Shown here piece by piece: positions 42,601 to 64,000 of a stretch of 64,000 nt of DNA; position 1 is the stretch's first letter; the number at the start of each line of letters is the position of its first letter. Position numbers and translations under genes: made by a program. This DNA comes from Dromaius novaehollandiae (lineage: Eukaryota; Chordata; Aves; Casuariiformes; Dromaiidae). The stretch lies in NCBI RefSeq assembly GCF_036370855.1, contig NC_088102.1:72239601-72303600 (forward strand). Reading direction: 5' to 3'. Under the pieces are notes generated by a model, which was not told where the DNA came from, ran no database searches, and was given only the letters and a program-made list of their open reading frames with translations.

Positions 42601-45600
42601 ACCTGGCCCAGTGCAATGCCACGCTGCCCAGCGCCGTGCCATCGGGCCACACTGAGGAGGCGGTGGTTGTGTGCTCAGGTGAGTGTGCCAGGAAGGGCCC
42701 CAGGGTGCCGCAGGGGCCTGAGTGGCTGCCCCATCCCGGGCTGTCTCTGGCTGCAGGGAGCCGGCGGGTGCGGCTGGCAAGCGGCCCTGGGCGCTGTGCT
42801 GGGAGAGTGGAGGTCTACGTGCAGGGGGCCTGGATCCATGTCTGTGAGGATGCCTGGGACCTCTGGGATGCCACCGTCGTCTGCCGCCAGCTGGGCTGCG
42901 GCAAGGCCCTGGCAGTGCCCGGCTCAGCCCGCTACGGCCGGGGCTCGGGGCCAGTGTGGCTGGGCGCCGGTGGGTGCTCCGGGACCGAGGCGACACTCTG
43001 GGACTGCTCGGCCCCGGCCCCGGCTCCAGGGCAGCGTGGTTGCAAGCAGGGTGCTGGCGCAGCAGCCGTTTGCTCAGGTCAGTGGCATCCTCCACTGGGG
43101 CCAGACGTAGCAGGGCTGTGGGACTGGCCGTGGTGCCAGCCCTCCCCACCGGCCTCCCTGACCAGCTCCCCACACCCTGGGCAGTCCCGGGGAGCGAGAT
43201 GGCGCCTTTGCCCCACTGCCCCAGCGTGTCCGCTGCTTGGGGTGCTTCTCTTAGTGCCTCGGGGAGGTGGGCGGCGTAGTCATAAGAGTGGGGGTGTCTG
43301 CCCAGCCCTGGCTCAGCTGTGCCCCGCCCCGCTCATGCTATCCCCTTGCAGAGCTCACAGTCCTGCGGCTGGCGGGTGGCAGTGGCTGCACTGGGCGCCT
43401 GGAGGTCTTCTACAATGGGACGTGGGGCAGCGTGTGCGCCAATGGCACCAGCCCCGCCACAGCCGCCGTGGTGTGCCAGCAGCTGGGCTGCGGGGCCACG
43501 GGCCGACTGGCATCTGCCCCAGCAACCACACAGGGCTCAGGCCCCGCGTGGCTGGCCTGGGTGCAGTGCGAGCTGGGGACCGACTCCCTCTGGCACTGCC
43601 CCTCGGCACCCTGGCACCTGCAGCCCTGTGACTTCCCTGGGGACACCCACATCACATGTGACAGGGACCCTGGCGGCACCAGAGTGACTCCCACGCCAGC
43701 CAGGGCAACTGGATGCCCAGACGGCACAGCTTGCACAGGTAGCTTTGCCAGCGCAGTGGCCCCAGGGACCCTCCAGCTCGGGCTGGCGCAGCCCAGTGGA
43801 GGGGGAGCAGCTCTGGCAAGGAGACCCCAGCTGCCCGGGCACTGTCACCCCTCGGCTTCATGCAGGGGTTGGCCCTTCGGCCCAGGGGTGCCCTCCTTGG
43901 CCTCCCTGTCCTGCCAGCCACTCCCCTGCATCCCCCCATGCATCCACAGTGATGCAGGATGGGACAGGGTCCCCAGCCTCCCTCCAGCTCTGCCGTGTTT
44001 TGGTGTCCTCACAGGTGCCCACAGGAGCCCCGCGGGGGGTGCTGGGGCCATGCCAGTGCCCACCATCCTCTGCATCATCCTGGGGACCCTGCTCTGCCTG
44101 GCCCTGGGGGCTCTCGCCATGCAGGCATGGCGCACCATGGCTCAGCACAGAGGTGGGTCGCACCGGGGTTCTCCGGGGCTGAATCTACCAGGACGAGGCA
44201 CCAGGGCAGAGCCAGTCAGGGCTGGGGGCCACTGATGGCTCCCGGGACTGCCTGGCCATGGGGCGGCCCGGCTGCACAGGCTGGGGACAGGCGTGGCGGT
44301 GGAGGCCAGGAGGCCAGTGCTGAAAGAGGGCAGGACGCGGCGCAGCACAAGGGCCAGGCAGGGGCACCAGAGCCACTCGGTGGATGGGGCACAGCAGTGG
44401 AGCTGGGCCACAGGGATATCGGGGGCACAGCTGGTGACCCCCACCATCCCATGTGCTGTGCCCATGGCCTGGGGTTATGGCTGCCCTTGCTTTCCAGGCC
44501 CTGGCAGAGCTGGGGACACAATCTCTGAGGCCGTCTATGAGGAGCTCGACTACACCCTGACGCCGGAGTACCAGGAGGTGCCCAGTGGCTCAGGTGCGTA
44601 CACCCTGACTCCCGTGCTCGGGCCAGCCCAGCCCGGCACCTCTCCCTGGGGAAGGAGGTCTCTGCGCTGAGGCCCCCACGCACCCGCTGCAGCAGCTGTG
44701 CTGGGAGCCTGGCCATGTGCTGGCCACGGGGAGCTGGAGTGCAGGGCCGTATCCTGGCCCCTCACAGTCCCCGCTGTGCGGTGAGGCTGTCCTGCCCAGG
44801 GTGCTGGCCAGGCCGTGGGACTGGGCAGCCTCTCCTAACGCCCCATCCTCCAGGCTCTCCATCAGAAGGCTCAGCAGCAAAGCTGCCGTATTACACCAGT
44901 GACAGCGTGGAGGTCAGCAGCCCCGCGACAGCAGCAGGTACGGGGCCGGAGTGCAGGGCCGTGCTGCAACGCGCCCAGAGGCGCAGCCGTCATGCCACAG
45001 CCAGTGCCAGCAGGGGCCTCACATGGTGCCTGTGCAGCATGGCCACGTGGCCCTCGGTTATTTTCTGGGCCAACACTCGTGGCTGGGGATGAGCCTCTGG
45101 GCTGCTGGCTCCATCCGAGAGCTGGCAGCCCCATGCAGCAGGCCTGGCCCCCATGTCGGCACCCGCAGCTCTGTGGTCAGTGGGGGCTGGCACAACGCGA
45201 CCCCTGCCCTGGCCTTCATTTCACTGCCCTGTCTGTTGCAGACACCCCTGCCCTGCCCAGGCATGGCCCCCCGGATGGGTATGATGATGCCGCGGCCGTG
45301 CTGCACCCGGGAGAGGCCGCTTCTCCAGGGTTGAGTGACGGAGGTGTCTCCGAGGTCACGGTGCTGGAAGGTAAGAGGCACCACAGCCCATACAGCAGCA
45401 CTGCCATTCCCAGCGCTGTGCCATCCCGCCGGGAGAGGTGGCTCCCCGTGCTCTACTGCGGCGGTGGGTGGTGCCTGGGCATGGCGGGGACCACTGGCCT
45501 GGACCTGGCAGCCGGGGGATGAAATGCCCCCTAGAGGCACCGGCCATGCTGTCCGCAGCGGGGAGCCGGCCCTCGCTGAGCCACCCGGAGCTGCCAGGAG

Positions 45601-45683
45601 CCACGACAGATGCACCAGCTTCAGCGCCCCGAGACATGGGCTACGACGATGTTGGTGTCAGTGGCCCCAGGACATCACTGTGA
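39669..45683 (+). CDS. SRCR gene 4: intact WC1/CD163-like receptor, 974 aa
   Basis: Exons: 39669-39735, 40255-40575, 40746-41060, 41206-41514, 41755-42069, 42361-42678, 42757-43077, 43352-43738, 44015-44152, 44498-44593, 44854-44937, 45242-45370, 45559-45683. They join to 975 codons with no breaks, and every junction is GT-AG, phase 1. The architecture is a signal peptide, seven SRCR domains, stalk, membrane helix (about 801-820) and tyrosine-rich tail ending GYDDVGVSGPRTSL. SRCR1 has FDWDVRG where genes 1 and 5 have FLWDVRG. SRCR2 (exon 3) and intron 3 match gene 3, while exons 2 and 4 match gene 1, so this exon looks converted. It has the full set of cysteines expected for each domain and is the best candidate, with gene 3, for a functional receptor. 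Confidence 0.9.
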
Positions 45684-45913
45684 GCATGGCGGGGCCGTGC
45701 TGTGGCAGTCCCTGAGGACACACACGGTGCCATGGGGCTCTGCCCCCATGAGCCACAGGCCAACCACAGCAGGCATCGTCTGTCTCACTAACGGCCCACT
45801 CGGGCTGGCCAGGGACTATGGGCACCATGGAGATGTGCCTCCATCATCCCTCCTGCGCAGCCCTCCAGGTGCTGCCTGAGTTTGTGCTTCCACTGTGCAT
45901 TTCTCTCTCTTCT

Positions 45914-45929
45914 ATTAAAAAAAATTAAA
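45914..45929 (+). terminator. Polyadenylation signal of gene 4
   Basis: Two ATTAAA hexamers at 45914-45919 and 45924-45929 lie about 231 nt after the stop codon. Confidence 0.6.
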
Positions 45930-46519
45930 AAATGTTTGGAGCCTCGGCCCCAAGGTGAGGCCTTTGGGCACACTGCTGTATCCTCAGGGGTGGCTGGGGC
46001 GGACAAGGAGCATGTCCTGCTCAGAGTGAGCTCTGTTGCACATAGCCAGTAACTCTCCTGCCGGCCTCACACGGCTCCAGTTAATCGCTGTTGCTGCTGC
46101 AGGTCTTTCGCCCGCACTGTCCTACACTGGGATGTTACCATGCACGGCACCCTGACTACTGTGGCCCTCACCCGCCCCAGAGCAGCTCTGCACCAGGTCG
46201 ACATTTGCCATCGCTGGTGGTGCACACTGCCCATGGCAGGGACTGCAGTGGAGCAAGCGTTGCTCTATAGAAAGGGCCAAGCATGGGCAGCGCCGCCTGA
46301 TGCAGCAGTGGTGGAGCAGCTGGCAGGCTTCCTCTCCTCGCTGGAGGTTTCCCTTGCTGTAAGGCAGGCCTGCAGCCCAAACACAAGGGCAGGACAATAG
46401 TGTGACAAGTGGAGATGTCTTGGAGGGAGGCTATGGTCTGCCTTCCTGCCTGCCACCTAGTAAAAGCCCCCATCTGGGAGAGCAGGGCAGATGCTTTGTC
46501 TCCTTGATTGGAGGCATCA
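45930..46519. other. Spacer D, first part: no gene seen
   Basis: Nearly identical to 58861-59450 and similar to 6945-7534. Confidence 0.6.
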
Positions 46520-47960
46520 CTGGGCACCAGTGAAAAGAGTCTGGCCCCATCCTCTTCACAAATTCCCTTCACATAGTTATACCCATCAATAGAGACCCCC
46601 CCGCCCTCAGGCTTCTCTCCTCCACCATGAACAGGCCCAGCTCTCTCAGCTTTTCCTTGTATGATACATATTCCCATTCCTTCAGCATCATAGGAGCCCT
46701 TTGCTGCACTTGCTCCAGGAGCTCCGTGTCTCTCTTGTCTTGAGGAGTCCAGAACTGCACACAGCACTCCAGACGTGGCCTCCCCAGGGATCAGTAGAGG
46801 CAAAGGATCACCTCCCTCCACCTGCTGACAACACTCTGCCTAATGCAGCCCAGCATACCCTTGGCCTTCTTGGCCACAAGGGCACGGTGCTGGCTCACGG
46901 TCAGCTTGTTGTCCACCAGGCCTCCCAGGTCCTTCTCTGCACGGCTGCTTTCCAGCAGGTCAGCCACCACCCTCTACTGCTGCAGCGGGTATTCCTCCCC
47001 AGGGGCAGGCCTCTGCACTTCACCTGATTCAGCTTCATGAGGTTCCCCTCTGCCCATCTCCCCAGACCGTCAAGCTACCTCAGAAGGGCAGCACAGCCCT
47101 CTGGGGTATCTGCCACTCCTCTCAGGATCACCCTTGGATCATCAGCACACTTGCTGTGGGTGCACTCTGTCCCCTCATCCACGTCACTGAGGAAGAAGAT
47201 GAACAGTACTGCACCCAGCATGGACCCCTGGCAGACACCGCCAGCTACAGGCCTCCAACGAGACTTTGTGCTGCTCATCACAATCCTCTGAGCTCTGCCA
47301 GACAGCCAGTTTTCAAGCCACCTCACTGTCTGCCCATCTAACCCACACTTCCTCAGCTTGCCTGTGAGGATGTGATGGGAGACAGTGTCCAAAGCCTTGC
47401 TCAAGTCAAGGGAGACAACTTGCCCTGCTCTCCCCTCATCTACCCAGCCAGGCGTCCCATCCTAGAAGGCTCTCACGTTGGTTAAGCATGATTTCCCCCT
47501 TTGGGAATCCACACTTGCTACTCTGGATCTGGAAAAGTCAGCCTCTCTTGAGGCTTTCTCCCTGCTCTCCAGGGCCTGGGATATGCGGAGGGCCCGTCTT
47601 TGCAGGAAAGACTGCAGCAAAGCAGCATTTAGGATCTCTGCCTTTCCAACATGCTTTGTCACCAGGGCACTTTGCCCAGTCAGCAGTGAGCCCACAACTT
47701 CCCTTCTCCTCCTTTGGTTATTGATGGATTTAAAGAAGCCCTGCTTGCTTCACATCCCTCAACACATTAAACTCCAAAGGGGCCGGGGTCTCGGCCTGGA
47801 CCTTTTGAGCCCCATCCTTCCTACTCGGACAACATCCCTCTATTCCTCCCATGTTTCCTGAGGCTGGCTCCACACAAGCCCTGCCTCAGCTCTTGGCAGT
47901 TCTCCTTAAGCATGGTGTCAAACAGATGTCCCCTGGCATTGTAGTACTCTAAGAGTAGTT
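46520..47960 (-). mobile_element. CR1 LINE fragment, spacer D
   Basis: It has the same insertion and polymerase jump as spacer A. A short local difference (near 47,120) gives CADDPRVILRGVADTPEG on the minus strand, shared only with spacer E. Confidence 0.85.
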
Positions 47961-48029
47961 CAGGAAACCACAAGTGTAAGCCACACACATGCAGCCACAG
48001 GCAACAAGCAAGCCAACGCTGCTGTTACT

Positions 48030-48262
48030 ATGGCACGGCTGTTTCAACCTCATGAAGAAGGACAAGCGCCACACACCACTGTGTTGCTGGGAGCTGCAGG
48101 GATGGGAAAGACAATGACAAGGAGGAAGATCACCATGGAGTGGGCAGGAGCAGTCCTTTATACACAGTTTGACTATGTTTTCTACCTCAACTGGAAAGAA
48201 ATCAGCCCCACTACAGCAGGGAGTGCAGCACACTTGATTTCCAAGCTCTGTCATTGCCCCTA
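48030..48262 (+). pseudogene. NLRP-type NACHT domain fragment, spacer D (open frame)
   Basis: An open frame from the ATG at 48030 runs through ARLFQPHEEG, the Walker A loop at residues 21-28 (GAAGMGKT), LYTQFDYVFYLNWKEI and HLISKLCHCP, then continues as unrelated sequence to 48467. The match to NLRP3-like NACHT starts ends at about residue 77. No PYD or CARD, Walker B or leucine-rich repeats are nearby, so it is a fragment and not a gene. The open frame shows only that this copy decayed less. Confidence 0.76.
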
Positions 48263-50404
48263 CTTGGACTCTTCCATCTGGGCTGGACCAGAAGTGCCTG
48301 GAGCCTGCACTTGCACTCTCTCCCCTGGCCTTCACAGTCTGGGTGGTTTTTTCCAGGCACAGCCCACATGGACTCACGAGCCACCTGGGCCCTGCATGGC
48401 CAATGCCTTTTGCTCAGACAGCAAGCAGGCCCTGCAGCGTCCTAGTGGGATGCAAGTACGGAGTTGAACTCTCTGGACTTGTGCACCCCCGAGCTAAAGA
48501 GAAACCTGAAACGAGAGCTCAAGGCCCCTGTGACCTTCTGCCCAACAAGAGCCGGCACAGAGCCTGGCTTGGGTCAGAATGGTTTGGGCTGGCCCTGTGG
48601 GACTCCTGCCACGTGCTTAACCCTGGCTCCTGTTCCCTGATTCAGAGCTGGAAAGCACTGAAACACAGATATGGTTCACCTGAGCAGACACTGAGACAGG
48701 ACAACCACAGTGTCCCTCTCTCGCCTGCACAGCCCTGGGTGCACCATGGCTGCTTGGAGGCCAGTGTGGCAAACCCCATGAGCTGTGAGACTTTGGATAC
48801 CTTCTGCCTCTTTTCCCCAGAAGCACCAGGGCAGTGAAAGCCATGGGCAGGGAGTGGGCATGGCAGCAGGGCTGTGGCCGTGCAGGCCCCCTGAGGTCGG
48901 ATGCTGTGGGGCCGGGACAGTGTATCGCCATCGAGGTGGACCATGCCGTGTGGTCTCCGGCGGCAGTTCTTCTCTTTTTCTTGTTCGATTGAAAGACTGA
49001 ACACATTGGGAGTAAAGGAAGAAACGTAGCAGGAGTTGGCTGCGCTCAAGGGAAGAAGGGAATTTTGCTGCTGTCATACCGGTGGGGGAGGACGGTGGCA
49101 TTATGGGTAGGCGTGCCTCAAAGGGAGGCCACGGCCTGTCTTCCTGCCTGCCACCAAGCGTTGGCCCCATCCGAGACAGCAAGGCACACACTTTATGTCC
49201 GTGATTGGAGGCATCACCCACAAGGGGTACAAAGGAGGGTTGGGAAGAAAGCTGAAGGCATGTCTCTCAATGCTAAATATCCCTCTCTGGCTTCCCAACT
49301 GCTGCACTTTCATCTCTATAATCAGCTCACAGCTTTGGTACCTCCCATGAATGTTCCGCCAGTTAAACACAGAAGGTCTACATGCTCAATGGTTACGCTG
49401 CATTAGTTTTCTATGCTGCTCTTTCCTCTCTATGTGGTCAGTGCATATGCTGCATGAGCTTTCTATGCCACTCTTGTCTCTCTGCAAGGCCTGCCGGCAT
49501 TTGTACGCAGCCCATACCGGAATGCTGAGGTCTGACAAGCCCCTGCCGCTAGTCCACTTCCCGACGGCTTCTGTTGCTGTGACCTGCTACTCTTTCAACT
49601 AGGGAAGCAAGTAGCTATGCACTGAGCTTTGCAGCCAAGGTAGGATGTGTCCTGCGAGAGCCCTGACTCAGCTGCTGATCTGCACCTCATCCCTGGTGTC
49701 TGTACACAGTGGGAAAATCCCCACACTGGGGCACTGGAGCTGTCTGTTGCACTGCAGCTGCAAAAAATGTCCCCACGTGGCAGCTGAGCTTGCCTGGGCA
49801 GAGGAGGATTCCCACCAGCTGTGACGCAACTGTGGGCAGGTGCTGGCCACCCTCGTCCCTGCCTTGGAAGGGGGTTCCGGGATGTTGGATGGAGGGTGCA
49901 TTCCAAGGTGGAGCGAGGTGCTGGGAACTCCCCTGCCCTTGGGTGGGTGCTGCTGCCACAGCTTAGAGGAGGCCTGAGAGACCTGCAAGGCATTGCTGGG
50001 CTGAACTGCTTTGCTGGTACAGCCAGCCACGAGCACAGGTCCCCTTGACAACCAAATCCACCTAGCTACCTACTGCAGATGCTGAAGCAGCCACCCTTCC
50101 AGGCGTTGTGTGGGAGGGAAACAAGGGGACAGGGCTGGGGCCGTGCCTGATTCACTGGACCTGAAAAGGGCACAGACTGGAAGTGGCATCCTCCCATGTT
50201 CCCACTGCAGTCGGTGGGGAGAAACAGGCCATACAGGGGGGGAATGCAGGTGCAGGCTGGACTGAACCATCCCGGGCACTGTCTCCCTCTGCCCTCCCAG
50301 TTCTGCACCAGCACCTGCACTAGCAGGGAGCATGAATGATGAAGTGCATCTGCACAGGGCTGACAGCATGGCACGACTGAAGCTGCCCTCCACTCTGCCT
50401 TGTG
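48263..50404. other. Spacer D, middle part: no gene seen
   Basis: Holds the block near 49,260-49,610 shared with spacers B and E. No recognised gene or RNA. Confidence 0.55.
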
Positions 50405-51010: not shown

Positions 51011-51864
51011 TACTGATGAGGAGCTCCTAAGAAATCAAGCTCCCTTTCAAGCTGACTGTGCTTCCTCTTCGTTTAGATTACAAACAAAAATACAAAGCGC
51101 ACATGACAAGACAGTTCCTGCAGGCAGTTATGATTCTAATGCACTGCTGGACCCTCCTCTCCTGCCTGAGCCCTTTCCCTAAGCACAGCAGCCTGGGAGA
51201 CCTTGTTGGCAAAGCTCCTCCTCCCTTCCTCCTCCTCTATGTGCCCTTTTTCACTGGAGTTCAGGCCAGCTTATCCAGGCCATCCTCCTGAGACATCAGC
51301 TCATCTCCTGAGCCTCACGACAGACCACTCTTGTGCTCGGCGGAGGCTCTCCTTCATTCCCTGCTGGCTGTGCTGCACTTAGGCAGATGCTGGGGAGGCA
51401 AAGCCCTACCAGTGACAACACCCATGCAGAGCGATATTCACCTGGGGGATGTCCCCACTCCTACCCAAAATGTCCCAAATGACCAGCAGGCTCAAGGGAA
51501 CCAACACCGGTCTCCTATATCCCTCAGATTTGTCCAAGAGCCTCTCAGTTGCTCTGGATTTGCTCCAGGTCTCTGTGGCACTGGCACTGCAAAGAGATAC
51601 TGATACACAGAAGCCTAGCGTTATCATACTCTGAAATGCAGCTGGCTGAGCTGAAACAGAAGCAGGTGGTGAGATGCTGGCTGTTCAGCAGGCCCAGCAG
51701 ATGCCTGTGCTCTGACACAGAGCAGCACTCGGGCTGCTGCAGCTGCTTCCCCTTGGGGGCTGGTGTGCAGTGGGGGAACCAACTCCTTCCTTCCCCGTCA
51801 CTGCATGGGGCAAGCGTGGCTGCCATGGGGACTGTGGGGCTGAGGGGCACAGGCCTGCAGGCAA
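51011..51864. other. Spacer D, last part, upstream of gene 5
   Basis: Conserved distal 5' flank, somewhat shorter than in spacer A. No gene supported. Confidence 0.5.
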
Positions 51865-52381
51865 CTGGATAGCACCTCCATCCACCCACAGGCTGCTGTG
51901 AGGAGCCCAGTCCCTCCTGCCAATGTGCCATGGAGCCTGGGGCTGGGCTTGACTTGGTGTCGCCCTGGAGCTTTCTAGCCCAGAGCCAGCCCCAGTGCCT
52001 GCCCCATGTGGAGGGCTGCAGTGCGGAGGGACCTGGTGCCAGAGGTCAGCCCCACAGCAGCAAGGAGCCTGCAGCAGATGCTGCCCCCTGCAGAGGACGG
52101 TCCCTGTCAAGGAAGGGCTCTTGCCACGCTCCCTGGCACAGTGTGACACACCCAGACCCATGCGGGATCAGGCATAGGGAGGGTCCGCACACCCTGCACC
52201 CGCTGCAGCACCCAGGTGGGGAGTCCTGCTCAGATCATCATCAGGCTCCCCACGGGGACAGCCAGGCAGGCACCCACCCACTGGTGGGGTGCGCGTGATG
52301 CCAGAAGTGGAGCCGAGACACATATATGGGCATGCACGGGGATGGAGAAGGTTATTGGAGGCTGGGGCTCCGTCAGATGGG

Positions 52382-52470
52382 AGATAACCCTCCTGATAAC
52401 GTCTCAAAAGGTGCCTAAAGCCGTTGATTGGCTCCCCTGGCAGCGGGGCCTGCGCTTCTGCCTATATATT
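52382..52470 (+). promoter_or_regulatory. Promoter of SRCR gene 5
   Basis: AGATAA lies at 52382-52387, TGATAA at 52394-52399, ATTGG at 52427-52431 and TATATATT at 52463-52470. The start codon follows at 52554. The spacing of all four elements is the same as in the other units. Confidence 0.6.
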
Positions 52471-52553
52471 GCCCTCCCCACAGCGGGGGCCTCTGGTGGC
52501 CTGGGAGGCAAGCAGGAGCTGGGGACTGCAGCATTGGGCAGGAGGTGTTTGGG

Positions 52554-55500
52554 ATGGCCACCATCAGCCAGCTCCTTGCCAGTGCACTGGGACTGCTGCT
52601 GTGCGTGCAGCTCTGCAGGGGTGAGTGCCTGCGGGCTCCCCGGGGATGGAGCTGCCTGCCCTCATGCCGAGAGTGGGAGGCAGCCCTGGGGTTGGGGAGG
52701 CCACCGTGGGGCTGGGGTGGCCACCATGGGTCTGTGCGTGACCTGCTGGGAGGGCTTCCTAGGGACATCAGCGGAGACACCCCACCCAGGCAGCCCTCGG
52801 GGACTCGCAGTGCCTGCGCTGCGCTGGGGACAGGGCTTATGCCAGTGGGGCCAAACACTGAGCACATGTGGCAGGACATGTCCTCTGCTGTGTTCACCTT
52901 GCATCGGGTGCTGGACATTCAGGGTCTGGATATGGCCCTACCTTTCTTCACACCTGGTGTCCTGCAGTGCACCCAAGGCTTTTCCACCCACACAGCCATA
53001 TGCCAGGGTCCAAAAGCCAGGCCCGCAGTGGGGAGTGGAGGCCATCAGGGCAGGGAACAGCTGTGGGACAGAGCTCCCTGGCCAGCCTGGCAGGGCATGC
53101 TACACCAGACAACACTGACACCATGCTGGGACTCCATGTCCTCCTTTGTGGTCCCACATGGGCACCCACAGGCACCGGGGAGCTGCGACTGGTTAACGGA
53201 GGCAGCCGCTGCGCCGGCCGGGTGGAGGTGAAGCACGAGGGCCAGTGGGGCACCGTGTGCAGCTATGACTTCCTCTGGGATGTCCGTGGGGCCTCCGTGG
53301 TCTGCAGGCAGCTGGGATGTGGCACCGTGGCAAGGACTTCCCCATACATGCCGTTCGGGGCAGGGGCTGGCCGGATTTGGCTGCAACCTTTTCTATGTCG
53401 TGGCACTGAGACAGCACTCCACCACTGTCCCCACTACGGCTGGGGCCAGCACTACTGTGGCCATGACACAGATGTTGGGGTGACGTGCTCAGGTGAGGGA
53501 TCAGGATACTCTGCCAGGGAGCAGACCCTTGGCTGTGCGCAGTTGGGAGATGGCATGGCTATGCCCAGGGCCTCCCCACTGGGGCCTGCCCAGGCACAGA
53601 TGGGGTACAAGAGTAGAGCTGGAGTGCAGCACCCTCATGCCCTGAGGGCACCTCTAATACAGATGCTGTGGAGCTCAGGCTGGTGAATGGAGGTGGTCCC
53701 TGTGCAGGCAGAGTGGAGGTGAAGCTGCGGGGCCAGTGGGGAACGGTGGCAGATGACGTATGGGACATGGAGGATGCCGAGGTGGTGTGTCAGCAGCTGG
53801 GCTGTGGCTCGGCCAAAAGCGCCCATGACTCGACCCACTTTGGGAGAGGGTCTGGACCTATTCAACTGGCTCTTGTGGACTGTCGCGGGGATGAGTCTGC
53901 ACTCTGGGAATGCACTGTCCCGGGATGGGGGCCATACCCTGGCCGCCATGACTGGGATGTTGGTGTGGTCTGCCAAGGTAAGAGCCATGGGGTCCCTCCA
54001 GGCTGCCTCGCACTCAGGCCCCGCTATGCCAGCACCAGGATTATGGGGGCAGCCCCCCTGCAAGCCCCCAGCGTGTTCCACAGACCCCCAAGAGACCCCA
54101 GACTCTCTCCTCCGGCAGGGTTTGTGCGGCTGGTCGGCGGGGACGGCGCCTGCTCGGGCCGTGTGGAGGTCAGGCAGGGCCGAGCCTGGGCCACCCTCTG
54201 CAAGGCCCACGTGGACCTCAACACCGCCCACGTCATCTGCAAGGAGCTGGGTTGCGGAGCAGCTCTGGCCATCACTGGGGCGGCACGCTTTGGGGCAGGA
54301 GCTGGGCCCATCTGGGACGGGGGCTTTGAGTGTGCAGGCAACGAATCCCTCCTGTCTGCCTGCGCCCGCAGGCTGCCCCATGGCCAGGGCTGCACCCACA
54401 CCAGTGACGCTGCCATCATCTGCTCCCATAAGAGAGCAGGGCACGGGACAGCGGCTGCAGCGGGAGGCAGGGGAGACGGGCAGCAGGGACAGGAGTGCCC
54501 AGGGCAGGGACGGGGCAGGGAGGCTGCGGGCTGGCTTGTGGCAGCCCCCAGGGGTGCGGGAAGGCAGCAGGGTGTGGGAGGCAGAGGGCTGCCATGCCTG
54601 CATGCCCCCACCATTGCAGAGCACGGGACATGAGGCCTTCATCTCCAGCGTCTTTTCTCCCTCCCAGCCTACACGGGCTTCAGGCTGGTGAACGGCAGCA
54701 CAGAGTGCACAGGGCGGGTGGAGCTGGAGGCACGCGGCACCTGGGGTTCCCTCTGCGATGCCGGCTGGGACATGCCCGACGCCCAGGTGCTCTGCCACCA
54801 CCTCGGCTGCGGCTTTGCTGCCTCTGTGCCCCGTGGAGGGTATTTTGGGACAGGGAGCAGCCCGCTGTGGCAGGACACGTTTCACTGCAGCGGGACCGAG
54901 TCCCACCTGGGAGAGTGCCCTGCCACGGTGCTGGGGACCCCCGCCTGCTCGCCGGACCACGCTGCCGCAGTCAATTGCTCAGGTGCGTGTGGGGCAGGTG
55001 GTGCCAGCCACAAGGGCTTCCTGGGGGGAGGGGACCCAGCACCCCAAAAAGGAAGGGTACCCCACTCCCCCTACTGCCACCAGGAGCTGTGGGGCACAGG
55101 GCCCATCTGGGGAAGCAGCGCCATGTCAGGGCAGGAGGAGGGCTGAGCCCAGGCATAGGGCAGCAGGCACATGGGCAGGAGGAGGGCAGTGGGGCCGTGC
55201 TGTCCCCCAGCATCCTGTGGGACTCCTTGGCACCCCACGGTCCCCAAAGAGCCTCAGGACATCTCCCCTCTGTGCGGGGACAGGTGGCACGGAACCCCTG
55301 CGGCTGGTGGATGGGGAGAGCCGCTGTGACGGACACCTGGAGGTGGCCCTGGGTGGGGCCTGGGGCCGAGTCCTGGCTCAGCAGTGGGATGCCAGCAGTG
55401 CAAGCGTGGTGTGCCGGCAGCTCCGGTGCGGCACGGTGCAGAAGGCCTATGCTGCCCCAGTGCTGGGGCCAGGCTCGAGCCCCCTGGGGCTGAGCGGGCT

Positions 55501-58500
55501 CCGGTGTGTGGGCACGGAGGCTCGCCTGGCCCAGTGCAACTCCACGCTGCCCAGCGCTGTGCCGCCGGACCATGCCGAGGAAGCGGCAGTTGTGTGCTCG
55601 GGTGAGTGTGCCGGGAAGGGCCCCGGGGCACTGTGGGGGCCCGAGCAGCTGCCCCATCCCGGGCTGTCTCTGGCTGCAGGGAGCCAGCGCATCCGGCTGG
55701 TGAGTGGCCCTGGGCGCTGTGCTGGGAGAGTGGAGGTCTACGTGCAGGGGACCTGGAGCCGCGTCTGCGAGGACACCTGGGACCTGTGGGATGCCGCTGT
55801 CGTCTGCCACCAGTTGGGCTGCGGCGAGGTCCTGGCAGTGCCCGGCTCGGCCCGCTACGGCCGGGGCTCGGGGCCAGTGTGGCTGGGTGCTGGCGCCTGC
55901 TCTGGCGCCGAGGCGACACTCTGGGACTGCCCAGCCCCGGCACCAGCCCCAGCCCTGGCCCCGGGGCAGCGTGGCTGTAAGGAGGGTGCTGGTGCGGCAG
56001 CCATCTGCTCAGGTCAGCACCGCGCTCCACCAGGGCCAGGGCCAGCGGGGCTGTGGGACCGGTTGTGGCATCAGCCCTCCCGACCGGCCTCCCTGCCCAC
56101 CTCCCCACACCGTGGGCAGTCCGGGGAGTGAGACGGCACCTTCGCCCCACTGCCCTGCCGTGTCCACTCCTTAGGATGCTTCTCATGGTGACCCGGGGAG
56201 GTGGGCGGAGTGGCCGGGACAGCAGGGGTGTTGCCCAGCCCCGCCTGAGCTGTGCCTACGCCCCCATGCTACCCCCTTGCAGAGCTCACAGCCCTGCGGC
56301 TGGCAGGCGGCAGCAGCTGCACCGGGCGCCTGGAGGTCTTCTACAATGGGACGTGGGGCAGCGTGTGCGCCAATGGCACCAGCCCCGCCACAGCCGTCGT
56401 GGTGTGCCAGCAGCTGGGCTGCGGGGCCACGGGCCGACTGGCATCTGCCCCAGCAACCACACAGGGCTCAGGCCCCGCGTGGCTGGCCTGGGTGCAGTGC
56501 GAGCTGGGGACCGACTCCCTCTGGCACTGCCCCTCGGCACCCTGGCACCTGCAGCCCTGTGACTTCCCTGGGGACACCCACATCACATGTGACAGGGACC
56601 CTGGCGGCACCAGATTGACTCCCACGCCAGCCAGGGCAACTGGATGCCCAGACGGCACAGCTTGCACAGGTAGCTTTGCCAGCGCAGTGGCCCCAGGGAC
56701 CCTCCAGCTCGGGCTGGCGCAGCCCAGTGGAGGGGGAGCAGCTCTGGCAAGGAGATCCCAGCTGCCCGGGCACTGTCACCCCTCGGCTTCATGCAGGGGT
56801 TGGCCCTTTGGCCCAGGGGTGCCCTCCTTGGCCTCCCTGTCCTGCCAGCCACTCCCCTGCATCCCCCCATGCATCCACAGTGATGCAGGATGGGACAGGG
56901 TCCCCAGCCTCCCTCCAGCTCTGCCGTGTTTTGGTGTCCTCACAGGTGCCCACAGGAGCCCCACAGCGGGTGCTGGGGCCATGCCAGTGCCCACCATCCT
57001 CTGCATCATCCTGGGGACCCTGCTCTGCCTGGCCCTGGGGGCTCTCGCCATGCAGGCATGGCGCACCATGGCTCAGCACAGAGGTGGGTCGCACCGGGGT
57101 TCTCCGGGGCTGAATCTACCAGGACGAGGCACCAGGGCAGAGCCAGTCAGGGCTGGGGGCCACTGATGGCTCCCGGGACTGCCTGGCCATGGGACGGCCC
57201 GGCTGCACAGGCTGGGGACAGGCGTGGCGGTGGAGGCCAGGAGGCCAGTGCTGAAAGAGGGCAGGACGCGGCGCAGCACAAGGGCCAGGCAGGGGCACCA
57301 GAGCCACTCGGCAGATGGGGCACAGCAGTGGAGCTGGGCCACAGGGATATCGGGGGCACAGCTGGTGACCCCCACCATCCCATGTGCTGTGCCCATGGCC
57401 TGGGGTTATGGCTGCCCTTGCTTTCCAGGCCCTGGCAGAGCTGGGGACACAATCTCTGAGGCCGTCTATGAGGAGCTCGACTACACCCTGACGCCGGAGT
57501 ACCAGGAGGTGCCCAGTGGCTCAGGTGCGTACACCCTGACTCCCGTGCTCGGGCCAGCCCAGCCCGGCACCTCTCCCTGGGGAAGGAGGTCTCTGCGCTG
57601 AGGCCCCCACGCACCCGCTGCAGCAGCTGTGCTGTGAGCCTGGCCATGTGCTGGCCACGGGGAGCTGGAGTGCAGGGCTGTATCCTGGCCCCTCACAGTC
57701 CCCGCTGTGCGGTGAGGCTGTCCTGCCCAGGGTGCTGGCCAGGCCGTGGGACTGGGCAGCCTCTCCTAACGCCCCATCCTCCAGGCTCTCCATCAGAAGG
57801 CTCAGCAGCAAAGCTGCCGTATTACACCAGTGACAGCGTGGAGGTCAGCAGCCCCGCGACAGCAGCAGGTACGGGGCCGGAGTGCAGGGCCGTGCTGCAA
57901 CGCGCCCAGAGGCGCAGCCGTCATGCCACAGCCAGTGCCAGCAGGGGCCTCACATGGTGCCTGTGCAGCATGGCCACGTGGCCCTTGGTTATTTTCTGGG
58001 CCAACACTCGTGGCTGGGGATGAGCCTCTGGGCTGCTGGCTCCATCCGAGAGCTGGCAGCCCCATGCAGCAGGCCCGGCCCCCATGTCGGCACCCGCAGC
58101 TCTGTGGTCAGTGGGGGCTGGCACAACGCGACCCCTGCCCTGGCCTTCATTTCACTGCCCTGTCTGTTGCAGACACCCCTGCCCTGCCCAGGCATGGCCC
58201 CCCGGATGGGTATGACGATGCCGCGGCCGTGCTGCACCCGGGAGAGGCCGCTTCTCCAGGGTTGAGTGACGGAGGTGTCTCCGAGGTCACGGTGCTGGAA
58301 GGTAAGAGGCACCACAGCCCATACAGCAGCACTGCCATTCCCAGCGCTGTGCCATCCCGCCGGGAGAGGTGGCTCCCCGTGCTCTATTGCGGCGGTGGGT
58401 GGTGCCTGGGCATGGCGGGGACCACTGGCCTGGACCTGGCAGCCGGGGGATGAAATGCCCCCTAGAGGCACCGGCCATGCTGTCCGCAGCGGGGAGCCGG

Positions 58501-58614
58501 CCCTCGCTGAGCCACCCGGAGCTGCCAGGAGCCACGACAGATGCACCAGCTTCAGCGCCCCAAGACATGGGCTACGACGATGTTGGTGTCAGTGGCCCCA
58601 GGACATCACTGTGA
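52554..58614 (+). CDS. SRCR gene 5: mosaic WC1/CD163-like receptor with lost exon 4 splice donor
   Basis: Exons: 52554-52620, 53172-53492, 53663-53977, 54119-54427, 54668-54982, 55284-55601, 55680-56012, 56283-56669, 56946-57083, 57429-57524, 57785-57868, 58173-58301, 58490-58614. The reading frame is open in every exon (978 aa if all are used). The base after exon 4 is A, so the donor reads ATAAGA where the paralogues have GTAAGA. SRCR3 is therefore probably skipped in frame (about 875 aa, six SRCR domains), or intron 4 is retained and ends at the stop at 54631-54633. SRCR6 has the longer Pro-Ala loop also seen in gene 2. Exon 8 begins like gene 2 and switches to the gene 4 sequence by about 56,345. 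The tail is complete, with the VYEELDY, YDDA and YDDV motifs. Confidence 0.87.
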
Positions 58615-58844
58615 GCATGGCGGGGCCGTGCTGTGGCAGTCCCTGAGGACACACACGGTGCCATGGGGCTCTGCCCCCATGAGCCACAGGCCAACCACAG
58701 CAGGCATCGTCTGTCTCACTAACGGCCCACTCGGGCTGGCCAGGGACTATGGGCACCATGGAGATGTGCCTCCATCATCCCTCCTGCGCAGCCCTCCAGG
58801 TGCTGCCTGAGTTTGTGCTTCCACTGTGCATTTCTCTCTCTTCT

Positions 58845-58860
58845 ATTAAAAAAAATTAAA
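58845..58860 (+). terminator. Polyadenylation signal of gene 5
   Basis: Two ATTAAA hexamers at 58845-58850 and 58855-58860 have the same layout as gene 4, as expected from the shared near-identical 3' block. Confidence 0.6.
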
Positions 58861-59450
58861 AAATGTTTGGAGCCTCGGCCCCAAGGTGAGGCCTTTGGGC
58901 ACACTGCTGTATCCTCAGGGGTGGCTGGGGCGGACAAGGAGCATGTCCTGCTCAGAGTGAGCTCTGTTGCACATAGCCAGTAACTCTCCTGCCGGCCTCA
59001 CACGGCTCCAGTTAATCGCTGTTGCTGCTGCAGGTCTTTCGCCCGCACTGTCCTACACTGGGATGTTACCATGCACGGCACCCTGACTACTGTGGCCCTC
59101 ACCCGCCCCAGAGCAGCTCTGCACCAGGTCGACATTTGCCATCGCTGGTGGTGCACACTGCCCATGGCAGGGACTGCAGTGGAGCAAGCGTTGCTCTATA
59201 GAAAGGGCCAAGCATGGGCAGCGCCGCCTGATGCAGCAGTGGTGGAGCAGCTGGCAGGCTTCCTCTCCTCGCTGGAGGTTTCCCTTGCTGTAAGGCAGGC
59301 CTGCAGCCCAAACACAAGGGCAGGACAATAGTGTGACAATTGGAGATGTCTTGGAGGGAGGCTATGGTCTGCCTTCCTGCCTGCCACCTAGTAAAAGCCC
59401 CCATCTGGGAGAGCAGGGCAGATGCTTTGTCTCCTTGATTGGAGGCATCA
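58861..59450. other. Spacer E, first part: no gene seen
   Basis: Nearly identical to 45930-46519. Confidence 0.6.
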
Positions 59451-60895
59451 CTGGGCACCAGTGAAAAGAGTCTGGCCCCATCCTCTTCACAAATTCCCTT
59501 CACATAGTTATACCCATCAATAGAGACCCCCCGACCTCAGGCTTCTCTCCTCCACCATGAACAGGCCCAGCTCTCTCAGCTTTTCCTTGTATGATACATA
59601 TTCCCATTCCTTCAGCATCATAGGAGCCCTTTGCTGCACTTGCTCCAGGAGCTCCGTGTCTCTCTTGTCTTGAGGAGTCCAGAACTGCACACAGCACTCC
59701 AGACGTGGCCTCCCCAGGGCTCAGTAGAGGCAAAGGATCACCTCCCTCCACCTGCTGACAACACTCTGCCTAATGCAGCCCAGCATACCCTTGGCCTTCT
59801 TGGCCACAAGGGCACGGTGCTGGCTCACGGTCAGCTTGTTGTCCACCAGGCCTCCCAGGTCCTTCTCTGCATGGCTGCTTTCCAGCAGGTCAGCCACCAC
59901 CCTCTACTGCTGCAGCGGGTATTCCTCCCCAGGGGCAGGCCTCTGCACTTCACCTGATTCAGCTTCATGAGGTTCCCCTCTGCCCATCTCCCCAGACCGT
60001 CGAGCTACCTCAGAAGGGCAGCACAGCCCTCTGGGGTATCTGCCACTCCTCTCAGGATCACCCTTGGATCATCAGCACACTTGCTGCAGGTGCACTCTGT
60101 CCCCTCATCCACGTCACTGAGGAAGAAGATGAACAGTACTGCACCCAGCATGGACCCCTGGCAGACACCGCCAGCTACAGGCCTCCAACGAGACTTTGTG
60201 CTGCTCATCACAATCCTCTGAGCTCTGCCAGACAGCCAGTTTTCAAGCCACCTCACTGTCTGCCCATCTAACCCACACTTCCTCAGCTTGCCTGTGAGGA
60301 TGTGATGGGAGACAGTGTCCAAAGCCTTGCTCAAGTCAAGGGAGACAACTTGCCCTGCTCTCCCCTCATCTACCCAGCCAGGCGTCCCATCCTAGAAGGC
60401 TCTCACGTTGGTTAAGCATGATTTCCCCCTTTGGGAATCCACACTTGCTACTCTGGATCTGGAAAAGTCAGCCTCTCTTGAGGCTTTCTCCCTGCTCTCC
60501 AGGGCCTGGGATATGCGGAGGGCCCGTCTTTGCAGGAAAGACTGCAGCAAAGCAGCATTTAGGATCTCTGCCTTTCCAACATGCTTTGTCACCAGGGCAC
60601 TTTGCCCAGTCAGCAGTGAGCCCACAACTTCCCTTCTCCTCCTTTGGTTATTGATGGATTTAAAGAAGCCCTGCTTGCTTCACATCCCTCAACACATTAA
60701 ACTCCAAAGGGGCCGGGGTCTCGGCCTGGACCTTTTGAGCCCCATCCTTCCTACTCGGACAACATCCCTCTATTCCTCCCATGTTTCCTGAGGCTGGCTC
60801 CACACAAGCCCTGCCTCAGCTCTTGGCAGTTCTCCTTAACCATGGTGTCAAACAGATGTCCCCTGGCATTGTAGTACTCTAAGAGTAGTTCAGGA
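59451..60895 (-). mobile_element. CR1 LINE fragment, spacer E
   Basis: It is nearly identical to 46520-47960, as part of the long block shared by units 4 and 5. Confidence 0.85.
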
Positions 60896-60959
60896 AACCA
60901 CAAGTGTAAGCCACACACATGCAGCCACAGGCAACAAGCAAGCCAACGCTGCTGTTACT

Positions 60960-61192
60960 ATGGCACGGCTGTTTCAACCTCATGAAGAAGGACAAGCGCC
61001 ACACACCACTGTGTTGCTGGGAGCTGCAGGGATGGGAAAGACAATGACAAGGAGGAAGATCACCATGGAGTGGGCAGGAGCAGTCCTTTATACACAGTTT
61101 GACTATGTTTTCTACCTCAACTGGAAAGAAATCAGCCCCACTACAGCAGGGAGTGCAGCACACTTGATTTCCAAGCTCTGTCATTGCCCCTA
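60960..61192 (+). pseudogene. NLRP-type NACHT domain fragment, spacer E (open frame)
   Basis: Same as the spacer D copy, with the frame open from 60960 to 61433. It belongs to the near-identical block of units 4 and 5. Confidence 0.76.
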
Positions 61193-63454
61193 CTTGGACT
61201 CTTCCATCTGGGCTGGACCAGGAGTGCCTCTGCATGGAGCCAGCACTTGCACTCTCTCCCCTGGCCTTCACAGTCTGGGTGGTTTTTTCCAGGCACAGCC
61301 CACATGGACTCACGAGCCACCTGGGCCCTGCATGGCCAATGCCTTTTGCTCAGACAGCAAGCAGGCCCTGCAGCGTCCTAGTGGGATGCAAGTACGGAGT
61401 TGCAGTCTCTGGACTTGTGCACCCCCGAGCTAAAGAGAAACCTGAAACGAGAGCTCAAGGCCCCTGTGACCTTCTGCCCAACAAGAGCCGGCACAGAGCC
61501 TGGCTTGGGTCAGAATGGTTTGGGCTGGCCCTGTGGGACTCCTGCCACGTGCTTAACCCTGGCTCCCGTTCCCTGATTCAGAGCTGGAAAGCACTGAAAC
61601 ACAGATATGGTTCACCTGAGCAGACACTGAGACAGGACAACCACAGTGTCCCTCTCTCGCCTGCACAGCCCTGGGTGCACCATGGCTGCTTGGAGGCCAG
61701 TGTGGCAAACCCCATGAGCTGTGAGACTTTGGATACCTTCTGCCTCTTTTCCCCAGAAGCACCAGGGCAGTGAAAGCCATGGGCAGGGAGTGGGCATGGC
61801 AGCAGGGCTGTGGCCGTGCAGGCCCCCTGAGGTCGGATGCTGTGGGGCCGGGACAGTGTATCGCCATCGAGGTGGACCATGCCGTGTGGTCTCCGGCGGC
61901 AGTTCTTCTCTTTTTCTTGTTCGATTGAAAGACTGAACACATTGGGAGTAAAGGAAGAAACGTAGCAGGAGTTGGCTGCGCTCAAGGGAAGAAGGGAATT
62001 TTGCTGCTGTCATACCGGTGGGGGAGGACGGTGGCATTATGGGTAGGCGTGCCTCAAAGGGAGGCCACGGCCTGTCTTCCTGCCTGCCACCAAGCGTTGG
62101 CCCCATCCGAGACAGCAAGGCACACACTTTATGTCCGTGATTGGAGGCATCACCCACAAGGGGTACAAAGGAGGGTTGGGAAGAAAGCTGAAGGCATGTC
62201 TCTCAATGCTAAATATCCCTCTCTGGCTTCCCAACTGCTGCACTTTCATCTCTATAATCAGCTCACAGCTTTGGTACCTCCCATGAATGTTCCGCCAGTT
62301 AAACACAGAAGGTCTACATGCTCAATGGTTACGCTGCATTAGTTTTCTATGCTGCTCTTTCCTCTCTATGTGGTCAGTGCATATGCTGCATGAGCTTTCT
62401 ATGCCACTCTTGTCTCTCTGCAAGGCCTGCCGGCATTTGTACGCAGCCCATACCGGAATGCTGAGGTCTGACAAGCCCCTGCCGCTAGTCCACTTCCCGA
62501 CGGCTTCTGTTGCTGTGACCTGCTACTCTTTCAACTAGGGAAGCAAGTGGCTATGCACTGAGGTTTGCAGCCAAGGTAGGATGTGTCCTGCGAGAGCCCT
62601 GACTCAGTTGCTGGTCTGCACCTCATCCCTGCTGTCTGTACACAGTGGGAAAATCCCCACGCTGGGGCACAGGAGCTGTCTGTTGTGCTGCAGCTGGGAA
62701 AAATGTCCCCACGTGGCAGCGGGGCTGTCTGGGCAGGGAAGGATTCCCACCAGCTGTGAAGCAACTGTGAGCAGGTGCTGGCCACCTTCGTTCCTGCCCT
62801 GGCAGAGGGCTCTCGGATGTCGGATGGAGGGTGCATTCCGAGGCGGAGCGAGGTGCTGGGAACTCCCCTGCCCTTGGGTGAGGGCTGCTGCCACAACTTA
62901 GAGGAGGCCCGAGAGACCTGCAAGGCATTGCTGGGCTGAACTGCTTTGCTGGTACAGCCAGCCACGAGCACAGGTCCCCTTGACCCCCCCAGTCCACCTA
63001 GCTACCTACTGCAGATGCTGAAGCAGCCACCCTTCCAGGCGTTGTGTGGGAGGGAAACAAGGGGGCAGGGCTGGGGCCGTGCCTGATTCACTGGACCTGA
63101 AAAGGACAGAGACCAGAAGTGCATCCTCCTATGTCCCCAGTGACTGCAGGGGGAGAAACAAGCCATACAGGGCGGGGATTGCAAGTGCAGGCTGGACTGA
63201 ACCATCCCGGGCGCTGTCTCCCTCTGCCCTCCCAGTTCTGCACCAGCACCTGCACTAGCAGGGAGCAGGGCCTGGCAGCTTGGCAGTGGCAGTGCCACCT
63301 CAGGCCAATGCCGCACAGGGTAAAGAAGCTCTTTGTGTCAGGAAGGCCTTGAAGTGGCCAGAGCTTTCCAGATCCTTTTGCCTTGGGGTGACGTTTCAGT
63401 GCATCTGCACAGGGCCGACAGCGTGGCACGACTGACTCTGCCCTCCACCCTGCC
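61193..63454. other. Spacer E, middle part: no gene seen
   Basis: Spacer-D-like up to about 62,545, spacer-B-like for a short stretch, then spacer-A/C-like. No gene supported. Confidence 0.55.
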
Positions 63455-64000
63455 TTGTGTTCACGGAAGCACAGAAGCACACAACGGCAGAGGTTGGAAG
63501 GGACCTCTGGAGATCATCGAGGCCAATGCCCCTGTCCATGAGGGTCATCTAAAGCCCATCACCCAGGACCCTATCCAGACGCCTCTGCAATGCCTCCAAA
63601 GATGGAGACTCCACAACCTCCCCGGGCAACCTGTTCCCGGGCTCCGTCACCCTCACAGGAAAGAAGCTTATCCTGCTGGGCAGACGGAACTTCCTGGGTT
63701 TCAGGTTGTGCCCGTTGCCTCTTGTCCTATCGCTGGGCACCACTGAAAAGCTCTTGACACCCTCCCTTCAGATATTTATGCCCACTGATAAAGATTCCCC
63801 CACAGCCTTCCCTTCTCCACCATGAACAGGCCCAGTTCTCTCAGCCTTTCCGCGTGTGACAGATGCTCCCATCTCTTAAGCATCGTAGGAGCCAAATGGG
63901 CCTTGACATTCCGAGCCCCATCCTTGCCTGCTTGGACAACATCCCTCCATTCCTCCCACATTTCCTGAGGCTGGCTCCACACCAGCCCTTCCTCAGCTTT
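63455..64000 (-). mobile_element. Internally deleted CR1 LINE fragment, spacer E (cut by window end)
   Basis: Homologous to 10975-11580 and closest to the spacer A and C copies, not D. The window ends inside it. Confidence 0.82.

Follow-up and report, generated by a model that had tools for sequence, protein, structure and literature searches.

How does a gene inside a tandem array come to resemble different neighbours along its length? The question is raised by gene 5, which lies in a stretch of 64,000 nucleotides from Dromaius novaehollandiae. This stretch, called the window below, covers C5:72,239,601-72,303,600, where C5 is contig NC_088102.1 of a genome assembly of 1.47 Gb in 271 contigs (GCF_036370855.1). 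Coordinates without a contig name are window positions, genes outside the window are named by their position on C5, and all mapped window features lie on the forward strand. The window consists of five tandem units of 12-14 kb each, referred to as genes 1-5, and they encode receptors similar to WC1 and CD163c. An earlier note on this DNA described gene 5 as a mosaic of three parents, assembled from genes 1/4, 2 and 4.

The mosaic itself is confirmed here and the general mechanism is supported, while the parents, the time and the place are corrected. Gene 5 very probably arose when an older chimeric gene for a WC1/CD163c-like receptor was copied, and is the second of the two copies. The other copy, gene 5', is found at C5:72,212,688, outside the window and 79,870 bp upstream of gene 5, and the two are 99.95% identical over 7.3 kb. 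Because the short patch in intron 1 and the tail of the gene both belong to class B, two lineages, class A and class B, are needed in place of three parents. The case also illustrates that parents can be misidentified from a window of five units when the array has at least 37 copies.

The mosaic structure of gene 5

The window is part of a tandem array of WC1/CD163c-like genes that extends over about 515 kb. With a segment of gene 5 as the query (52,958-56,700), at least 37 full-length copies, one truncated copy and four fragment matches were found at C5:72,090,314-72,605,542. The copy counts are lower bounds, the best 40 of 139 candidates having been scored. Each of the 16 units scanned with a hidden Markov model gave seven SRCR exon hits, and with three extra fragments the total came to 115 hits.

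The coding span of gene 5 (52,554-58,614) was modelled from reading frame and splice sites. It has 13 exons and would encode 978 amino acids if all of them are spliced. Exons 1-5 lie at 52,554-52,620, 53,172-53,492, 53,663-53,977, 54,119-54,427 and 54,668-54,982, exons 6-10 at 55,284-55,601, 55,680-56,012, 56,283-56,669, 56,946-57,083 and 57,429-57,524, and exons 11-13 at 57,785-57,868, 58,173-58,301 and 58,490-58,614. The Pfam SRCR family scores above its cut-off in each of exons 2-8, and seven such stretches are found in gene 4. Downstream of these seven SRCR exons come a membrane exon and four cytoplasmic exons, in which the motifs YEEL, YDDA and YDDV occur. A hydrophobic stretch, read by eye, lies in exon 9 between SRCR and tail, and YEEL is in exon 10.

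The mosaic can be followed at informative sites, which are the positions where genes 2 and 4 differ. In intron 1, gene 5 agrees with gene 4 at 25/25 sites (52,633-52,853) and then with gene 2 at 35/35 sites (52,871-53,118). The breakpoint therefore lies within 52,853-52,871 when gene 5 is compared with genes 1-4; the earlier note had put it at about 52,853-52,880. The gene-4-like sites before it mark a short class-B patch, similar to a conversion tract, whose outer bounds are about 52,592-52,871. Its 5' edge falls between 52,592 and 52,672 relative to the class-A gene 72,425,035.

Next comes the class-A head (52,871-56,323), consisting of the remainder of intron 1, SRCR1-6 and the first codons of SRCR7. 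It is defined by site counts and by approximately unbiased (AU) tests. A likeness to gene 2 in exons 6-7 and intron 7, including a long Pro-Ala loop, had been pointed out before and holds good. Identity to gene 2 is 96.3-99.0% in five 300-bp windows starting at 55,258-56,058, compared with 83.0-90.7% to gene 4, and exon 7 measures 333 bp, as against 321 bp in gene 4.

The second switch lies within exon 8. Gene 5 follows gene 2 at 39/39 sites in 56,129-56,323, and from 56,347 to 58,946 it follows gene 4 at 454 of 456 sites, with one site like gene 2 and one like neither. These runs place the breakpoint between classes A and B at 56,323-56,347, inside SRCR7, where the earlier note had exon 8 turn gene-4-like by about 56,345. 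SRCR1-6 and the first codons of SRCR7 are thus of class A and the remainder is of class B. The class-B tail (56,347-62,450) contains the rest of exon 8, the membrane and cytoplasmic exons, the 3' end and about 3.8 kb of spacer, in which the likeness to gene 4 runs on to about 62,350-62,450. This extent, the 5' edge of the patch and a gene-4-like stretch at 54,282-54,720, discussed below, were absent from the earlier note. With a run statistic of the 3SEQ type, from which sites matching neither parent were dropped, five parent pairs were tried, each in both directions, and 0 of 2,000 site shuffles reached the observed value in any of them.

Array-wide, the nearest relatives of the patch after gene 5' are class-B genes, seven of them at 98-99% and two at 95-96%, compared with 90-92% in ten class-A genes. 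Class-A heads were found in 12 genes (95-100% identity, among the copies scored). One of these, 72,425,035, is 97.7-99.7% identical to gene 5 in all 17 windows starting at 52,858-56,058, and gene 2 ranges from 91.6 to 100%. The head of gene 2 (13,783-17,181) is a cousin of the gene 5 head, not its donor.

For the tail, the nearest class-B relatives are gene 4 with its spacer (40,043-50,332), which adjoins gene 5 upstream, and its copy, gene 4'. Identity over 56,362-58,614 is 99.2% to genes 4 and 4' and 98.0% to 72,116,077, while the six other class-A genes read, including a partial one, reach 83.5-87.8%. The class-B gene 72,464,586 reached 99% when the tail was searched against the whole array. 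This search scored nine of the 12 class-A tails: genes 5 and 5' matched at 100%, and the seven others only in pieces of about 73-88%. For three of these seven, which are additional to the six genes read, the pieces are of 78-88%. The three unscored tails are those of gene 2 and 72,318,091, both read and found to be 83.5% identical, and that of 72,474,192. Among the 12 class-A heads, a class-B tail was seen only in genes 5 and 5', the tail of 72,474,192 having been neither read nor scored.

Tree tests led to the same separation of segments. The alignment held 21 units, of which 19 were complete and the others were 72,425,035 and the partial 72,539,921; each segment was tested with 20-21 sequences, and constraints were compared by the AU test. 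A constraint joining gene 5 to all class-A genes was run first and its placement in the class-A sub-clade supported by the head was run second; both are reported. In the head, a clade of genes 4 and 5 is strongly rejected both for 52,871-54,250 (log-likelihood difference, delta lnL, 264) and for 54,930-56,323 (delta lnL 309). For the patch, the class-A sub-clade of the head is rejected (delta lnL 48, AU p=9e-4), as is the constraint with all class A (p=0.024). In the tail, the sub-clade is rejected for 56,362-57,690 (delta lnL 158, p=3e-4) and the looser constraint for 57,690-58,946 (p=2e-4).

A single history for the head, the patch and the first tail segment is thus rejected, which supports recombination between paralogues. 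Gene conversion or unequal crossing-over between paralogues, as the earlier note proposed, agrees with the tree tests. The swap leaves the order of the SRCR domains unchanged; what it does is to join SRCR1-6 of one class to the SRCR7, membrane exon and tail of the other.

Several results weigh against a clean junction of a class-A head with a class-B tail. Counted across the head in full (52,871-56,323), 329 sites are like gene 2, 57 like gene 4 and 3 like neither, and with 57 of 389 sites of the gene-4 type the head is not purely gene-2-like. When 72,425,035 takes the place of gene 2, 366 sites agree with it, 26 of 394 with gene 4 and 2 with neither. The AU test leaves the class-A sub-clade standing at the 5% level in the later tail segment (57,690-58,946; p=0.074), and in the earlier one (56,362-57,690) the looser constraint with all class A is not rejected (p=0.20). 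We think that the latter value arises because a basal position on a long branch is available to gene 5. In the flank on the upstream side (51,860-52,600) the tests reject both simple placements, and this segment fits no simple class. The close identity of gene 5' to gene 4 stops about 6.7 kb downstream, in the spacer, a pattern that a long conversion or two crossovers fit too. The letters compared exclude about 250 kb of the array. Finally, the whole analysis rests on one assembly, with no reads, and a false duplication or a misjoin is possible.

Part of the gene-4 signal in the head comes from the stretch at 54,282-54,720, which spans the end of exon 4, intron 4 and the start of exon 5 and is itself ambiguous. 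It has 21 gene-4 sites versus 5 gene-2 sites and is 97.7-99.3% identical to the class-A gene 72,425,035. Placement with gene 4 and placement in the class-A sub-clade each give p of about 0.02, and the constraint with all class A is unrejected (p=0.09). Near 54.5 kb the best match is again 72,425,035 at 98%, followed by two class-B genes at 97%, and the sequence there therefore looks like an exchange that is older and shared. The same probably applies to 54,282-54,720 as a whole.

Gene 5' and the order of events

Genes 5 and 5' have the same sharp junctions in exon 8 and intron 1. Their four differences in 7.3 kb are each private to one copy among the 21 aligned. The earlier note had proposed a sliding-window check, and with units from the rest of the array included this gives essentially the outcome that the note had named as refuting its reading, one best match across the whole gene. 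In 117 sliding 250-bp windows (52,554-58,614) compared with the 20 other aligned units, gene 5' is the sole best match in 100, shares the first place in 14 and is surpassed in 3. Because no unit surpasses gene 5' in 114 of these windows, gene 5 is not a mosaic freshly made from the window genes.

The duplication reaches well beyond the gene. A block with genes 3, 4 and 5 (25,370-62,350, about 37 kb), called X', copies block X at C5:72,185,100-72,222,300 with an offset of 79,870 bp. X and X' have 25 mismatches in 35 kb (27,323-62,322), a divergence of 0.07%. A second block, Y, with genes 1 and 2, recurs at an offset of 64,944 bp; its copy Y' starts at 62,350 and extends past the window end at 64,000. 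The difference between the two offsets, 14,926 bp, is close to one gene unit (the distance from 72,225,937 to the next unit is 14,727 bp). The simplest reading would be one block duplication of about 80 kb with the loss or gain of one unit.

The order of the events can be estimated from these figures. Among 5,994 aligned sites in 56,450-62,449, genes 4 and 5 show 29 mismatches. Since this tail divergence of 0.48% is about seven times that of the block, the fusion predates the block copy, if rates were equal.

The proposed history has three steps. In the first, non-allelic recombination in exon 8 would have joined a class-A gene, contributing the signal peptide and SRCR1-6, to a gene-4-like class-B gene, contributing SRCR7, the stalk, the membrane exon, the cytoplasmic tail and several kb of spacer. 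The sequence evidence for this step is strong, and the event itself is reconstructed from it. In the second, a class-B tract of 0.18-0.28 kb would have been inserted into intron 1, as by gene conversion; the tract is plain to see, and we infer its mechanism and its place in the order. In the third, with a change of the donor after exon 4 from GT to AT already in place, the chimera and its neighbours would have been copied as a block with an offset of about 80 kb to give genes 5' and 5. The two copies are the traces from which this last event is deduced.

The donor change also bears on the product. Genes 5 and 5' have AT in place of GT at the intron 4 donor (54,428-54,429), a change that the 19 other aligned copies lack, and for this reason a normal product of gene 5 is doubtful. 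Skipping of exon 4 stays in frame, and if exon 4 is skipped, the receptor would have six SRCR domains rather than seven. The likely product is a class-A ectodomain on a class-B membrane and tail module, with the YEEL and YDDA/YDDV tyrosines kept. No change in the type of signalling is evident from the sequence, since the tail motifs are kept in both classes.

Changes in exons and splice sites occur in other units too. Exon 12 is 5 bp shorter, with a shifted frame, in genes 1 and 2 and in units 72,129,107, 72,305,606 and 72,318,091, which include classes A and B. These five genes may be pseudogenes or have altered tails. In gene 2, exon 4 is one base shorter. The class-C genes 72,143,150 and 72,332,135 have GC instead of GT as the donor after exon 2.

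Alternative explanations

The strongest alternative is that the class-B tail was written by one long gene conversion and not by a crossover, which we consider possible but rather unlikely. It is suggested by the way in which the tract of high identity to gene 4' ends on both sides, in exon 8 and in the downstream spacer. A length of about 6.7 kb is, however, long for a gene conversion tract. Moreover, what lies beyond the tract in gene 5' is closest to spacers of classes B, D and b, the class-A spacers being more distant. Because the downstream side never returns to a class-A flank, the tail is better explained by an unequal crossover followed by another exchange in the spacer. Unequal crossing-over is accordingly preferred for the tail and gene conversion for the patch in intron 1.

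An assembly artefact is improbable. It could be a false haplotype duplication, with gene 5' and gene 5 one and the same, or a misjoin of near-identical units. The difference between X and X' is in a heterozygosity-like range, and an excerpt of PMC3511184 records that bovine WC1-2 was once a mis-assembled concatamer. The offsets of X/X' and Y/Y' nevertheless differ by about one unit, and identity among further copies of the array is graded (97.5-99.9%). In addition, the exon 8 and intron 1 junctions are present in both copies, and the array holds other chimeras.

Local assembly of gene 5 from window genes 1/4, 2 and 4 is less probable still, to the point of being very hard to sustain. When only the genes of the window are considered, the best match does alternate between gene 4/1, gene 2 and gene 4. 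In the 117 windows the sole best match is gene 2 in 57, gene 4 in 46, gene 1 in 10 and gene 3 in 2, with 2 ties. That one gene of the window might be best throughout was rejected on this alternation. Against local assembly, gene 5' carries the same mosaic in a block copied together with genes 3 and 4, and the closer class-A head, that of 72,425,035, lies outside the window. Unless the assembly holds gene 5' as a duplicate, or gene 5' was itself copied later from gene 5, local assembly is refuted in both its time and its place.

That there was no recombination, and that uneven selection or rates mimic different paralogues, has almost no chance of being right: constraint is indeed not uniform (the ratio of nonsynonymous to synonymous rates, dN/dS, is 0.18-0.35 across exons 2-9), but the switches fall in introns, spacer and exons within 18-24 bp, with runs of 25/25, 35/35, 39/39 and 454/456 sites, so that this cause was rejected on site runs and shuffles and is contradicted by the tree tests. 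The dN/dS values were obtained from nine representative genes, with no exon above 1, and indicate a receptor family under purifying selection.

The array and known receptor families

Gene 5 has counterparts elsewhere in the array. When the 21 units were painted by class, 72,157,006 showed a class-C head and a mostly class-B remainder, with the switch near 54.7 kb in gene 5 coordinates. In match tables, used here without letters, 72,345,991, 72,412,853 and 72,519,951 have head and tail identities like those of 72,157,006 and are probably also genes with a class-C head and a class-B tail. Gene 2 and its copy are of class B upstream of about 52.6 kb and of class A thereafter, and gene 4 has a class-C patch over SRCR2.

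A tentative and rather speculative extension is that the array is a system of modular diversification. At least three head classes would have been repeatedly re-joined, with breakpoints that vary, to a shared class-B membrane and tail module, and multi-gene blocks would have spread the results. If this were true, the pairing of recognition heads with signalling tails would vary from one individual to the next.

Other features of the array and its surroundings were observed alongside. Five class-A genes have a second partial tail copy about 4 kb downstream, at C5:72,172,990-72,180,100 and after 72,425,035, 72,488,127, 72,539,921 and 72,583,748. The tail of gene 2 runs on into sequence resembling this second copy, and looks like the result of a deletion between two tail copies. 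An NLR-type gene, with open frames for NACHT, winged-helix and HD2, lies at C5:72,077,918-72,079,666, some 10 kb ahead of the array's first SRCR gene. Neither Rfam (0 matches within the window) nor a phage collection matched the window, the latter as expected of an animal gene. Searches of the genome gave four COX1 matches, which contain stops and are taken to be nuclear fragments, and 150 scored matches among 211 candidates for the corneous beta-protein (Keratin) family, a result that agrees with a bird or another sauropsid.

SRCR exons also occur elsewhere in the genome. Similarly spaced exons with near-equal scores were found at C5:77.55 Mb, C8:0.25 Mb, C9:35.87 Mb, C10:30.16 Mb, C48:0.50 Mb and C86:0.19 Mb, some of these sites being at most about 0.5 Mb from a contig end. 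It is possible that they represent a subtelomeric SRCR gene that has spread between chromosomes. Highly regular arrays of SRCR exons lie at C6:44.59-44.63 Mb, mostly with a spacing of about 2.46 kb and equal scores, and at C32:1.28-1.30 Mb. Their regularity suggests recently amplified genes, which we take to be DMBT1-like or similar.

Hybrid genes in tandem immune-receptor arrays are already known, and the process is a textbook one. The KIR locus, for instance, has fusion genes with a changed tail. Unlike the genes described here, which come from one assembly, KIR are immunoglobulin-domain receptors known from populations.

The comparisons that follow draw on excerpts of the cited papers. The chicken BG genes, which are butyrophilin-like, include many hybrids; they undergo expansion and contraction, for which recombination and/or deletion has been suggested (PMC4046983). 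They are like the present array in being tandem immune genes with hybrids. They differ in protein family and in the parts that are separated: in BG the 5' end is associated with the expression pattern, whereas here the ectodomain is parted from the membrane and tail module.

The array itself looks like an avian equivalent of the WC1 family of ruminants. WC1 members have been described as co-receptors of gamma-delta T cells and as candidate sensors of pathogens (PMC3511184, PMC2906472). For the CD163/WC1 family, PMC2906472 infers gene conversion. A tail motif of the form Y-(Q/E)-(D/C/E)-(I/L), which YEEL fits, has been described for WC1 and CD163c-alpha (PMC2906472). As in WC1 and CD163c-alpha (SCART), there are several SRCR exons, one membrane and four cytoplasmic exons, a YEEL motif like the one that WC1 requires, and a multigene family. 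The accessible parts of PMC2906472, PMC3511184, PMC2681482, PMC12032555 and PMC4988538, and the literature listings, contained no base-level hybrid of the WC1/CD163c-like family.

The chicken is reported to have at least 18 CD163 genes, and six of them are hybrids of WC1 and CD163c in their domain organisation (PMC2906472). Unlike these WC1-like genes, at least 37 full-length copies stand here in one array of about 515 kb, with seven SRCR exons in every one of the scanned units. And unlike the chicken hybrids, those described here join recent sub-classes of one gene. In gene 5 the junctions of a receptor hybrid can be placed at the level of bases, and its history can be given an order: fusion, then block copy.
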